DNA of 53,579 bases from Blastococcus sp. MG754426 (GTDB taxonomy: Bacteria > Actinomycetota > Actinomycetes > Mycobacteriales > Geodermatophilaceae): NCBI RefSeq assembly GCF_021699055.1, contig NZ_SSXC01000021.1, positions 1 to 53,579 of the forward strand. Reading direction: 5' to 3'. The notes under the pieces were generated by a model that saw only the letters and a program-made list of their open reading frames with translations, was not told the DNA's origin and searched no databases. Each line of letters opens with the position of its first letter. The first letter of the stretch is position 1. The translations under genes were made by a program, and so were the position numbers. Positions 32,473-39,625 of this stretch are shown here, one piece after another.

Positions 32473-32507
32473 CGTGCGATGGTGGAGGGGAGCCGCCTTC
32501 CCGGCTC

Positions 32508-32550
32508 CCGGACGAGCGGTGCCGTACCCGGTGTGCGACAAGACGGCGCC
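32508..32550 (+). promoter_or_regulatory. Guanidine-III riboswitch (ykkC-III class)
   Basis: The segment contains, in order, CCGGACGAG, GCCGTACCCGG and GACAAGACGGC, the conserved blocks of the guanidine-III class, a compact H-type pseudoknot. It ends just before the ribosome binding site GAGGGG (32553-32558 region) of a SugE/Gdx gene at 32564. Ligand binding should expose the site and switch on guanidinium export. Class recognised by sequence match from memory; the neighbouring gene supports it strongly. Confidence 0.9.
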
Positions 32551-32563
32551 AGAGGGGCCCGCG

Positions 32564-34787: not shown

Positions 34788-35795
<1,008 letters not shown>

Positions 35796-35802
35796 GGACC
35801 CG

Positions 35803-35808
35803 AATCTA
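35803..35808 (-). promoter_or_regulatory. selD -10 (leaderless type)
   Basis: TAGATT on the minus strand, seven bases before the selD GTG; it includes the UAG stop of the preceding gene. Confidence 0.55.
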
Positions 35809-36393
35809 GGCCCGGCCACCGCGGAGCACCCGGAGCCGGGGTGGCCCGGGCAGCGGGGGAGGTGCCGCCCGGGGCAGCTTCCGCCCGGCGGGGTGCCCGG
35901 CCGAGGGCGGGGCCGCCACACCGGTCAGGTCGCGCCGCGGCGCCGGCTCCCCGGTGACCTCGGCGGCGCCGATCCGGTCGGCCCGGAACCAGCGCAGCTC
36001 GTGGCGCTCCCGGCACCAGGCCAGGAGGAACTCGTGCGCGCCGGCGCGGACCAGCAGCTGCGGCTCCACGGCCCGCTCCGACGAGCGGCCCTCGCGGTCG
36101 CGGTACCCGAGCACCAGGACCCGCTGCTCGCCGAGCCCCTGCTCCACGCGGCGGCGCACCTCGGCGTCGAGCGCCGCCTCGGCGGCCAGGCGCCGGCTGC
36201 TCGCCAGCAGCCGCGCCCGCTGGGCCGGATCCGGCTCCAGCGCCCCCAGCACCTTCTCCAGCGCGGTCCGGCCGGCGGCCGCGTACGGGCCCTCGGGGTG
36301 GGCGGCCAGCGCGGCGGCGACGGCGGCCGCCTCCTCGGGCGTGAGGGCGACCGGCGGCAGCGTGGCGGGGGTGCGGTGCTCGGTGCGGTTCAC
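35806..36393 (-). CDS. WYL-domain protein lacking an HTH domain
   Basis: About 195 residues (207 if the GTG at 36429 is used). It starts with TLPPVALTPEEAAAVAAAL, the segment that follows the HTH in WYL regulators, and contains a WYL-like domain (PQLLVRAGAHEFLLAWCRERHELRWFRADRI). The normal N-terminal winged helix is missing, and tRNA-Sec starts only 18 bp beyond 36429, so there is no room for it. A Pro/Arg-rich tail ends in UAG. WYL domains sense ligands; whether this one acts on the sel locus is unknown. Confidence 0.7.
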   Translation of the reverse strand: MNRTEHRTPATLPPVALTPEEAAAVAAALAAHPEGPYAAAGRTALEKVLGALEPDPAQRARLLASSRRLAAEAALDAEVRRRVEQGLGEQRVLVLGYRDREGRSSERAVEPQLLVRAGAHEFLLAWCRERHELRWFRADRIGAAEVTGEPAPRRDLTGVAAPPSAGHPAGRKLPRAAPPPLPGPPRLRVLRGGRA

Positions 36394-36433
36394 GCCGCGG
36401 ATGGTGGCAGCGACCTCCGACAGTTCCACCCCG

Positions 36434-36446: not shown

Positions 36447-36542
36447 GGAGGCGTCAGGGTGTCTGGTGGCCCCCGCGGCCTCTAAAGCCGACGTGGCCGA
36501 GCATCTCGGCCAGGCGGGTTCGATTCCCGTCCGCCTCCGCCA
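36447..36542 (+). tRNA. selC: tRNA-Sec with anticodon CUA (reads UAG)
   Basis: A 96-nt tRNA with encoded CCA (36540-36542) and discriminator G. The acceptor stem GGAGGCG (36447-36453) pairs with CGCCTCC (36532-36538), and the T arm is GCGGG-TTCGATT-CCCGT. The variable arm is very long, TGGCCGAG/CTCGGCCA (36494-36512, 8 bp), and the D arm is extended with loop TGGT; both are hallmarks of tRNA-Sec. The anticodon stem CGGC/GCCG encloses the loop CTCTAAA, so after U33 the anticodon is CUA instead of UCA. It lies 30 bp before selA. Odd points: mismatches at the eighth acceptor pair and at the top of the anticodon stem. Confidence 0.93.
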
Positions 36543-36572: not shown

Positions 36573-37889
36573 ATGACGACCGACCAGCGCCGCCAGGTGC
36601 CCCGGACCGACACGCTCCTCGCCGACCCCCGGCTGGCCGGGGCCGGCGAGCGGCTGGGACGCGTCCTGGTCAAGGCTGCCGTGCAGCGTGTCCAGCAGCG
36701 GATCCGGGTGGGCGAGCTCGCACCCGAGGACGCCGTCGACGCCGTCCTCGCCGACCTCCCGCCCGTGGCCGGCAGCCTGCGCCCCGTGCTCAACGCGACC
36801 GGCGTGGTCGTGCACACGAACCTCGGCCGCGCGCCGCTCTCGGCGGCCGCGGTCGAGGCGGTGCTGGCGGCGAGCGGCACCACCGACGTCGAGCTGGACC
36901 TTCGCACCGGCCGCCGCGGCCCGCGGGGGGAGGCGGCGATCGCGGCCCTGCTGGAGGCGGTCCCCGCGGCAGAGGCCGCGCTGGTGGTGAACAACTGCGC
37001 CGCCGCGCTCGCACTGGTGGCCACCGCGCTGGGGCAGGGTCGCGAGCTGGTGCTCGCCCGGGGGGAGCTGGTGGAGATCGGCGACGGCTTCCGCATCCCC
37101 GAGCTGCTCGAGAGCACCGGCGCCCGGCTGCGCGAGGTCGGCACCACCAACCGGGTCGCGCTCGCCGACTACCGCGACGCGCTGGGCCCGGCCACCGGCG
37201 CGGTCCTCAAGGTGCACCCGTCGAACTTCGTCGTGCGCGGGTTCACCCGGGCGGTCGAGGTCGGCGAGCTCGCGCCGGCGCTGCGGGGCACCGGCGTGCC
37301 GCTGGTCGCCGACGTGGGCTCCGGCCTGCTCCGGCCGCACCCGGTGCTCCCCGACGAGCCCGACCTGCAGACGACGCTCGCCGCGGGCGCGGACCTCGTG
37401 CTGGCCAGCGGCGACAAGCTCCTCGGCGGCCCCCAGGCGGGGCTCGTGCTCGGCCGGGCGGAGCTCGTGCAGCGGCTGCGCCGCCACCCGCTCTACCGGG
37501 CCTTCCGGGTGGACAAGACGACGCTGGCCGCGCTGGAGGCGACGCTGCGCGGGCCGCTGCCGCCGGTGCAGCGGATGCTCGCGGCCGACGTCGCCGGCCT
37601 GCGGGAGCGGGCGCGTGCGCTGGCCGCCCGGCTCGTCGCCGCCGGCGTGGCGGCCGCCGCGGTGGACGCCGACTCGCGCGTGGGCGGGGGAGGGGCGCCC
37701 GAGCACCCGCTGCCCGGCGCCGCCGTCTCGCTGCCGCCGGAGTTCGCCGAGCCGCTGCGGCTGGGCGGGACCCCGGTCGTCGGCTACGTCGAGGACGGCC
37801 GCACGCTGCTGAACCTGCGCAGCGTCCCGCCGGACGCCGACGACTCCCTCGCCGACGCCGTGCTGGAGGTGGCGCGCCGGTGGACGTGA
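36573..37889 (+). CDS. selA: L-seryl-tRNA(Sec) selenium transferase
   Basis: PLP enzyme that converts Ser-tRNA-Sec to Sec-tRNA-Sec with selenophosphate; 438 residues. LNATGVVVHTNLGRAPLS near 73, VVNNCAAALAL near 136, VADVGSGLL near 245, and the PLP lysine in LASGDKLLGGPQAG (Lys282). The N-terminal domain (1-65) is the tRNA-Sec binding helix bundle. ATG at 36573; the stop overlaps selB by ten bases, so the two are translated together. Confidence 0.96.
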   Translation: MTTDQRRQVPRTDTLLADPRLAGAGERLGRVLVKAAVQRVQQRIRVGELAPEDAVDAVLADLPPVAGSLRPVLNATGVVVHTNLGRAPLSAAAVEAVLAASGTTDVELDLRTGRRGPRGEAAIAALLEAVPAAEAALVVNNCAAALALVATALGQGRELVLARGELVEIGDGFRIPELLESTGARLREVGTTNRVALADYRDALGPATGAVLKVHPSNFVVRGFTRAVEVGELAPALRGTGVPLVADVGSGLLRPHPVLPDEPDLQTTLAAGADLVLASGDKLLGGPQAGLVLGRAELVQRLRRHPLYRAFRVDKTTLAALEATLRGPLPPVQRMLAADVAGLRERARALAARLVAAGVAAAAVDADSRVGGGGAPEHPLPGAAVSLPPEFAEPLRLGGTPVVGYVEDGRTLLNLRSVPPDADDSLADAVLEVARRWT

Positions 37890-39625
37890 TCGCGACGGCC
37901 GGCCACGTCGACCACGGCAAGTCCGCGCTCGTGCGGGCGCTCACCGGCATGGAGCCCGACCGGTGGGCCGAGGAGCGCCGCCGCGGGCTCACCATCGACC
38001 TGGGCTTCGCGTGGACCACGCTGCCCTCGGGGCGCCGGCTCGCGGTGGTCGACGTCCCCGGGCACGAGCGCTTCGTCGGCAACATGCTCGCCGGCGTCGG
38101 CTCGGCGCCGGCCGCGCTGGTGGTCGTCGCGGCCGGCGACGGCTGGTCGGCGCAGACCGCCGAGCACGTGGGCGTCCTGGACGCGCTGGGGGTGCGGCAC
38201 GCGGTGCTCGCCGTCACCAAGACGGACCTCGCCGACCCGGCACCGGTGCTCGCCGACGTGCGCGAGCGGCTCGCCGCGACGTCGATGGGTGAGGTGACCG
38301 GCATCGCGGTCAGCGCGGTGACCGGGCAGGGCGTGCCCGAGCTGACCGCGGCGCTGGAGCACCTGCTCGGCGGGCTGCCCGCTCCGGACCCGGGCGGGCC
38401 CGTGCGGCTGTGGATCGACCGCGCCTTCACCATCAAGGGCGCCGGCACCGTGGTCACCGGCACGCTCGCCGCCGGCGCCGTCGCGGCCGGCGACCGGTTC
38501 GTCCTGGGCGGCCGCGAGGTGACCGTGCGCGGCGTGCAGTCCCTCGGTGAGCCGGTGGAGCGGGCCGAGGCCACCGCGCGGGTGGCGCTCAACCTGCGCG
38601 GCGTCGCCGTCGAGGAGCTGGCCCGGGGCGACGCGCTGCTCACGCCCGGGGCCTTCCGGCTGACCGACGTCGTCGACGTGACCCTGACGGCGGTGCCCGA
38701 CGACCGGCTGCCCGCCGGCCCGGTCGTGCACGTCGGCTCGGCCACCGTGGGTGCCCGGCTGCGCCCGCTCGACGGCGCGGCGGTGCGCCTGCGCCTGGCC
38801 TCGCCGCTGCCGCTGCGGATCGGTGACCGGCTGCTGCTGCGCGACCCGGGGGCCCGGCGGGTGCTCGGCGCCGACGTGCGCGACGTCGACCCGCCCGAGC
38901 TGCGGCGCCGGGGTGCCGCGCGCCGGCGGGCCGCCGAGCTCGTCGCCCAGCCGGACGGGGCGGACGGCGCCTCCGCCGCCCTGGCCCGACGCCGCATCGT
39001 GCGCGCCGCCGACTTCGCCGCGATGGGCTGGCCGGTCCCGGCCGGGGCGACGCGGCACGGGCCGTGGTTGCTGGCCGCCGGGCTCGCCGACGAGCTGGCC
39101 GCCCGGGTGCCCGAGATCGTGACGCGCTACCGGCGCCTCCGGCCGCTGGAGCCCGGGCCGCCGGCCGAGGTGGTGCGGCGGGCGCTGGACGTGCCCGACG
39201 CGGAGCTGGTGCCGGCGCTCGTCCGCGAACCGCTGGTGCTGCGCGAGGGCCGGGTCGTCGACGGTGCGGCCGAGCTGCCGGCGGAGGTGCAGCGGGCGGT
39301 CGACGCCGTCCGCGCGCGGCTCACCGCCGACCCCTTCGCGGCGCCGGAGGCCCCGGAGCTGGTGGCTGCCGGGCTGGGCAGCCGGGAGCTCGCCGCCGCG
39401 GTGCGCAGCGGGCAGCTGGTGCGCGTGGGCGAGGGCGTCTACCTGGCGCCCGGTGTCGAGGCGGTGGCGCGGGAGCGGCTGGCGGCGGTGCCGCAGCCGT
39501 TCACGCTCAGCCAGGCCCGCCAAGCGTGGGGCACCAGCCGCCGGGTCGCCGTCCCGCTCATGGAGTGGCTGGACGGCCGGGGCGTCACCCAGCGGCTGCC
39601 CGACAACACCCGCCGCCTCCGGTAG
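37880..39625 (+). CDS. selB: Selenocysteine-specific elongation factor SelB
   Basis: Delivers Sec-tRNA-Sec to the ribosome at a recoded codon by binding the SECIS hairpin; 581 residues. EF-Tu-like G domain: TAGHVDHGKSALVRALTG near 5, DVPGHERFVGNM near 57, TKTDLAD near 113. Domains II and III follow, then winged-helix repeats (about 350-581) that bind SECIS RNA. The gene itself ends in UAG, followed after about 15 nt by a terminator-like hairpin. GTG start within the selA stop region. Confidence 0.95.
   Translation: MDVIATAGHVDHGKSALVRALTGMEPDRWAEERRRGLTIDLGFAWTTLPSGRRLAVVDVPGHERFVGNMLAGVGSAPAALVVVAAGDGWSAQTAEHVGVLDALGVRHAVLAVTKTDLADPAPVLADVRERLAATSMGEVTGIAVSAVTGQGVPELTAALEHLLGGLPAPDPGGPVRLWIDRAFTIKGAGTVVTGTLAAGAVAAGDRFVLGGREVTVRGVQSLGEPVERAEATARVALNLRGVAVEELARGDALLTPGAFRLTDVVDVTLTAVPDDRLPAGPVVHVGSATVGARLRPLDGAAVRLRLASPLPLRIGDRLLLRDPGARRVLGADVRDVDPPELRRRGAARRRAAELVAQPDGADGASAALARRRIVRAADFAAMGWPVPAGATRHGPWLLAAGLADELAARVPEIVTRYRRLRPLEPGPPAEVVRRALDVPDAELVPALVREPLVLREGRVVDGAAELPAEVQRAVDAVRARLTADPFAAPEAPELVAAGLGSRELAAAVRSGQLVRVGEGVYLAPGVEAVARERLAAVPQPFTLSQARQAWGTSRRVAVPLMEWLDGRGVTQRLPDNTRRLR

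Follow-up and report, generated by a model that had tools for sequence, protein, structure and literature searches.

A tRNA-Sec with anticodon CUA in Blastococcus sp. MG754426 and the probable use of UAG as a selenocysteine codon in Geodermatophilaceae

The tRNA-Sec gene and its sel neighbors

The window analyzed here is a stretch of 53,579 nucleotides of Blastococcus sp. MG754426 (contig NZ_SSXC01000021.1). At 36447-36542 it contains a gene for selenocysteine (Sec) tRNA, selC, whose anticodon is CUA and which lies beside selD, selA, and selB. The features of this locus are:

34788..35921, minus strand: selD, selenide water dikinase, above the NCBIfam cut-off and without internal stop
35806..36429, minus strand: gene of a WYL-domain protein, adjoining selC; it overlaps the first part of selD as listed
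36447..36542, plus strand: selC, tRNA-Sec, with anticodon CUA at 36482-36484, G73, and an encoded CCA
36573..37889, plus strand: selA, L-seryl-tRNA(Sec) selenium transferase, above the NCBIfam cut-off, 30 bases downstream of selC
37880..39625, plus strand: selB, Sec-specific elongation factor, above the NCBIfam cut-off, with the stop codon TAG (39623-39625)

Searched with cmscan, selC matches the tRNA-Sec model RF01852 at 36447-36538 with 67.7 bits (gathering score 47, E 9.8e-12), spanning model positions 1-91 of 91. The alignment to this model displays G73, a long variable arm, and a six-pair D stem, which are hallmarks of tRNA-Sec, with some of the pairs being non-standard. ARAGORN finds a tRNA at 36447-36542 on the plus strand and reads its anticodon as cta, with the label tRNA-Pyl; in the sequence, the anticodon arm is ...GCGGC CTCTAAA GCCGA..., with CTCTAAA as the loop. 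CUA thus replaces UCA, the usual anticodon of tRNA-Sec, which is not required since variants have been published. The folding energy of selC is below that of all 200 dinucleotide shuffles (z -3.76), and its unconstrained minimum-energy fold differs from the cloverleaf. The original prediction, made from the letters of the window, was of a tRNA-Sec with all the hallmarks of this class, linked to selA, selB, and selD; this is borne out by the NCBIfam scores of the three proteins and by the full-length RF01852 match, the Infernal check that it had proposed, and its reading of the anticodon and its position proved exact both by ARAGORN and by sequence.

SelD reads GGCACKI close to its start, which we take to be the catalytic-Cys form. 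Its HMM profile match begins at residue 48-51, and the true start of selD is therefore probably within the listed ORF. The closest SelA among the fetched loci is that of Blastococcus sp. LR1. Elsewhere in the window, cmscan identifies a Guanidine-III riboswitch (32487-32552, 63.7 bits) upstream of a small ORF that presumably encodes an SMR-type exporter.

The MG754426 genome (4,709,512 bases, 224 contigs, 99.99% complete) has nine RF01852 matches at E <=0.001, two of which, selC and a match on contig C26, are above the cut-off. The latter was rejected as a second tRNA-Sec because ARAGORN reads it as tRNA-Ser(tga). Seven of the eight matches other than selC were checked and are tRNAs for Ser (three), Tyr, Leu, and Met (two); the one left unchecked has 30.6 bits, a score equal to that of the two Met tRNAs. 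A second tRNA-Sec with anticodon UCA, which had been named as a finding that would speak against decoding of UAG, is therefore absent among the eight of nine matches identified.

TAG at selenocysteine sites and the hairpin behind it

We searched the MG754426 genome for three families, formate dehydrogenase (FDH), UGSC, and AhpC-TSA, and found TAG at the Sec site of five genes (two FDH, two UGSC-family, and one AhpC-like). The FDH model has 13 matches, 11 without a stop and two with one in-frame TAG each, in ENQARI-U-HSATVPGLG and ENQARI-U-HSSTVPGLG respectively. Both UGSC matches carry TAG at the U of UGSC. One of the 16 AhpC-TSA matches has TAG, in RGDW-U-PYCC (the match spans model positions 27-119 out of 124), the other 15 being without a stop. 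Selenoprotein genes with an in-frame TAG had been anticipated from the anticodon, and TGA in place of TAG at Sec sites was to count against it; no in-frame TGA was reported in the searches of these three families in MG754426, where every in-frame stop is TAG.

The same codon recurs across the family. In a census of 112 Geodermatophilaceae genomes from 12 genera, 100 genomes have FDH matches at E <=1e-20 (121 matches), 118 of which have a single in-frame stop, a TAG; the remaining three (two in G079 and one in G033) miss the site. TAG-bearing FDH matches are present in 98 genomes, and in all 81 FDH sequences compared (the two of MG754426 and 79 fetched, of 118) the TAG occupies the Sec site itself. 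The 12 genomes without an FDH match at this threshold comprise nine from the three genera with UCA tRNA-Sec described below and three CUA genomes (G034, G094, and G096) that are 67-81% complete. UGSC matches were found in 54 of the 112 genomes; among 95 matches, 72 have one TAG, 23 are without a stop (including all three in UCA genomes, two in G066 and one in G072), and none has TGA. Sec is thus absent from some UGSC homologs, and neither the FDH nor the UGSC search points to a use of Sec in the UCA genomes.

Starting 11 bases past the FDH TAG, a 7-bp stem closing a GGUCU loop (AGUCU in one gene) is possible, with all seven pairs standard in 78 of the 81 FDH genes. The middle pair of this stem links the third position of a Val codon with that of a Gly codon and is standard in 81 of 81 genes, being G-U in 48, C-G in 25, U-A in four, and G-C in four. 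Among distinct sequences, this pair is standard in 42 of 42, against a mean of 19.7 in shuffles that ignore the relatedness of the sequences, with 0 of 10,000 shuffles as high. Among 22 FDH sequences, 20 (all but L176 and L177) have the inner stem in their minimum-energy fold, and among 22 UGSC sequences (of 72), 20 (all but L182 and L183) show a stem with a three-base loop in theirs. Judged from this pattern of substitutions, the hairpin after the FDH TAG covaries. The SECIS-like hairpin that was to be expected behind a Sec codon is accordingly recognized by complementarity and covariation in the 81 FDH genes. The folding energy of the one MG754426 FDH hairpin examined is unremarkable given its base composition (z -1.08, with 24 of 200 shuffles folding equally well or better). 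As a separate observation, the segment that would contain the Sec codon and the hairpin is missing from both FDH copies of G079 (L283 and L284), which continue from a common point, due either to assembly dropout at the hairpin or to real Sec loss.

UAG is also found at the ends of genes. SelB has a shared C-terminus in the window and 27 named relatives, and its gene ends in TAG in seven of these 28 and in TGA in 21 (in this count L085 has no row and L069 and L071 repeat counted genomes; G038, with TGA, was counted separately). Of 35 window genes picked heuristically, some of them doubtful ORFs, five end in TAG and 30 in TGA. As UAG still ends genes, selB included, its recoding depends on context.

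CUA and UCA tRNA-Sec within and outside the family

A tRNA-Sec above the RF01852 cut-off is present in 108 of the 112 family genomes; the four without one (G067, G071, G097, and G098) are 72-82% complete. The CUA anticodon-arm pattern occurs in 101 genomes belonging to nine of the 12 genera, with two matches each in G036 and G095. Seven genomes from three genera have a UCA tRNA-Sec instead (G066, G068, and G069; G070; G072, G073, and G074), with 2.5-3.7 Mb in 190-550 contigs. We also examined a set of named selA loci, the best 80 of 544 selA relatives, of which 28 are Geodermatophilaceae by kinship and 52 are not; this set may share species with the census. ARAGORN reads cta at 28 of the 28 family loci. 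With 101 of 112 genomes carrying the CUA arm and with cta at all of these loci, the anticodon is not a chance base change.

Outside the family, the 52 named selA loci have 36 tRNA-Sec nearby, all with UCA (36/36), while ARAGORN found none in 16 stretches; FDH Sec sites in these loci are TGA in 15 of 15. In a sample of 396 genomes of the phylum (the named and unnamed sets may share species), the FDH-site pattern was found at 88 places in 84 genomes, with TGA at 86 of them; the two TAG sites are MG754426's own. The codon preceding the Sec TAG is ATA in 81 of 81 family FDH genes (ATA-TAG-CAC, e.g., L017:1916-1918), ATA being one of 257 Ile codons in the heuristic set of window genes, and UGA-type FDH sites in the named loci read ATT-TGA in 15 of 15. 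The possibility that ATA changed together with TAG was rejected, as ATA precedes TGA in 57 of the 86 phylum matches (other Actinomycetota). One locus counted among the 28 by kinship, L084, is titled Bacillus sp. AZ43 (marked unverified) and has a Blastococcus-like sel locus with a CUA tRNA-Sec; this record is probably mislabelled.

The CUA and UCA tRNA-Sec of the family align with few differences, namely the anticodon, the pair closing the anticodon stem, and scattered others. The closing pair is C31-G39 in each of the 50 CUA tRNAs counted and throughout the letters matched by the census pattern. Among 44 UCA tRNAs, 39 are readable by the pattern, with U31-A39 in 38 and U-G in one; of the five that the pattern does not read, U-A is visible in the alignment for two. 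Pair 31-39 is a candidate for what must change besides the anticodon. In a midpoint-rooted SelA tree of 81 rows (five of the 80 named loci left out because their translations contained a stop, five of the seven UCA family genomes included), the 28 CUA rows, window included, form one group with support 100/100, and the UCA genus g5 is next to it (99/93). The UCA genera g6 and g7 fall beyond that branch among non-family rows, at an exact place with weak support (82/33), and since they lie apart from g5 the family's UCA rows do not cluster together in SelA. This single gene tree suggests that UCA probably gave way to CUA in a single event, on the stem leading to the main Geodermatophilaceae clade. 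The before and after of a code change thus seem to coexist in the family, with UCA genera, a large CUA clade, and one strain with both tRNAs.

This strain, the Geodermatophilus genome G058, has a CUA tRNA-Sec on contig C11 and a divergent UCA tRNA-Sec (81.8 bits) on contig C17, 1.2 kb from the contig's end:

L053:1169-2157 (contig C17): UCA tRNA-Sec and a CMD/AhpD-like gene with an in-frame TGA

The gene belongs to the CMD family (PF02627), codes for 192 residues, starts about 0.3 kb from the tRNA, and has its TGA in CFY-U-MESH. The accessible part of a 2026 review (PMC13188914) counts TIGR01926, an AhpD-like CxxU family, among the selenoproteins. Each of the 12 listed matches to the G058 gene at E <=1e-20 (10 of the 396 phylum genomes) has one TGA; in the loci read, it lies at the CxxU site in nine of 10, L218 having none by motif. 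The folding energy for the G058 gene has a z of -0.44. FDH and UGSC matches of G058 carry TAG. A selB query has a single strong match, at 82%; a second, at 36% across 256 residues, is of a type common to G000 and G038 that was taken for another GTPase.

The GC content of C17 in 2-kb windows is 0.68 at the contig start, 0.60-0.63 at 1 to 6 kb, and 0.70-0.76 past 6 kb. One side of the UCA locus holds a transposase of the IS110 type (Pfam) together with an ORF that has a transposase-type helix-turn-helix; the ORF at the start of C17 may encode a transposase as well. Contamination is an unlikely source of the UCA tRNA. A 4-kb flank on C17 has matches in all 26 genomes of the genus, but in genomes other than G058 the matches listed are mostly pieces of tens to hundreds of bases with 65-98% identity; the longest among them extend over 2.2 kb, with 92% identity on another G058 contig and 87% in G039, and resemble a mobile repeat. 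Searching plasmids with the CMD gene returned 327 records, none of which reaches 60% identity. On balance, we lean slightly toward the view that G058, a UAG-Sec bacterium, took in a UGA-Sec gene with its own tRNA and uses two Sec codons at once. The one SelB ortholog found would then serve both codons, presuming that the second tRNA is accepted by SelB and by SelA. If true, the tRNA alone would determine which codon means Sec, and gene transfer could layer one Sec code on another; G058 makes it testable whether one SelB serves two Sec codons in one cell.

Proposed decoding of UAG, alternatives, and known systems

In the proposed system, tRNA-Sec(CUA) would be charged with serine, SelA would convert the seryl-tRNA-Sec using selenophosphate supplied by SelD, and SelB would bring the tRNA to UAG codons that have a SECIS hairpin behind them, while UAG without the hairpin would still be the end of a gene. 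Charging, delivery by SelB, and Sec in the protein are predicted here from known Sec biology. The tRNA, its linkage, TAG at Sec sites, the hairpin covariation, and the restriction to this family in the sets searched are seen in the sequence. Taken together, we consider it very likely (probability about 0.95) that this Geodermatophilaceae bacterium has a Sec system that inserts Sec at UAG in a hairpin-dependent manner, with UAG otherwise a stop and a probable single switch from UCA to CUA. The claim of the original prediction that the organism inserts Sec at UAG is supported by the tRNA, the linkage, and the TAG sites, and is to be narrowed to a few UAG codons in context, UAG still ending genes.

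This narrowing bears on a stronger version, in which UAG is wholly reassigned to Sec and has lost its stop role. TAG is indeed a minority stop in the window (five of 35 heuristic genes vs. 30 with TGA), but the window selB itself ends in TAG at the shared C-terminus, as in seven of 28 genomes, and we regard whole reassignment as very unlikely. It is extremely improbable that the tRNA is a pyrrolysine tRNA and UAG means pyrrolysine: the anticodon CUA and the tRNA-Pyl label given by ARAGORN would fit, whereas the full-length RF01852 match with a long variable arm, the adjacent selA, selB, and selD, and the occurrence of TAG where FDH, UGSC, and AhpC-like genes have their Sec sites would not.

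Two further alternatives were weighed. MG754426 is a draft assembly in 224 contigs, and a sequencing error or a decayed tRNA could disguise a gene that is truly UCA or functionless; given that 101 of 112 family genomes share this anticodon arm and that 118 FDH matches have TAG, the chance of this is practically negligible. The TAG could also be a leaky stop read by near-cognate tRNAs without Sec, a reading to which the prediction of Sec in the protein from nucleotide data leaves some room. The 118 FDH matches reaching the site, each with one TAG and no other stop, the covarying hairpin, and the match of the codon to the tRNA anticodon argue against it, and we give it hardly any weight. Insertion of Sec at UAG in context is the reading that we retain. 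Under the standard code, selenoprotein genes of this family, FDH among them, are read as ending early, and a tRNA finder can label tRNA-Sec(CUA) as pyrrolysine.

The UAG-Sec trait of the window is already published for Geodermatophilaceae, and the original prediction was right that this may be a known type there. The accessible text of Santesmasses et al. (2017; PMC5330540) describes tRNASec-CUA in three genomes of Geodermatophilaceae, following Mukai et al. (2016), with TAG Sec sites in FDH, in UGSC-motif proteins, and, in Blastococcus saxobsidens DD2, in AhpC, the same three kinds as in MG754426; in the parts available, later papers (PMC10778597, PMC8124441) also give UAG as a Sec codon alternative to UGA. 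A 2013 pyrrolysine survey lists and then excludes Geodermatophilus obscurus in the available portion (PMC3639795), and may have met its tRNASec-CUA. Our literature search, with most subscription journals outside it, returned nothing on UCA genomes in this family, on a genome with two Sec codons, or on a 31-39 pair differing with the anticodon; G058, with its possible two Sec codons, is the new lead.

Compared with the published UAG-Sec system of this family, the window shows no difference in kind, having the same CUA and TAG at Sec sites; the 112-genome census, the UCA family genomes, the 31-39 pair, and the genome with both tRNAs go beyond it. The canonical tRNASec(UCA)/UGA-Sec system is alike in the tRNA body, sel linkage, the hairpin behind the codon, and selenoprotein families, whereas the window system has CUA, C31-G39 instead of U31-A39, and the codon TAG. 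tRNA-Pyl has the anticodon CUA in common with the window tRNA, but its variable arm is three nucleotides according to the accessible part of PMC7609411, in contrast to the long arm here. In Aeromonas salmonicida, as far as the available text of two papers goes (PMC10778597, PMC5756416), the anticodon of tRNASec and the Sec codon similarly changed together, although that tRNA reads a Cys sense codon, whereas the window tRNA reads a stop codon.
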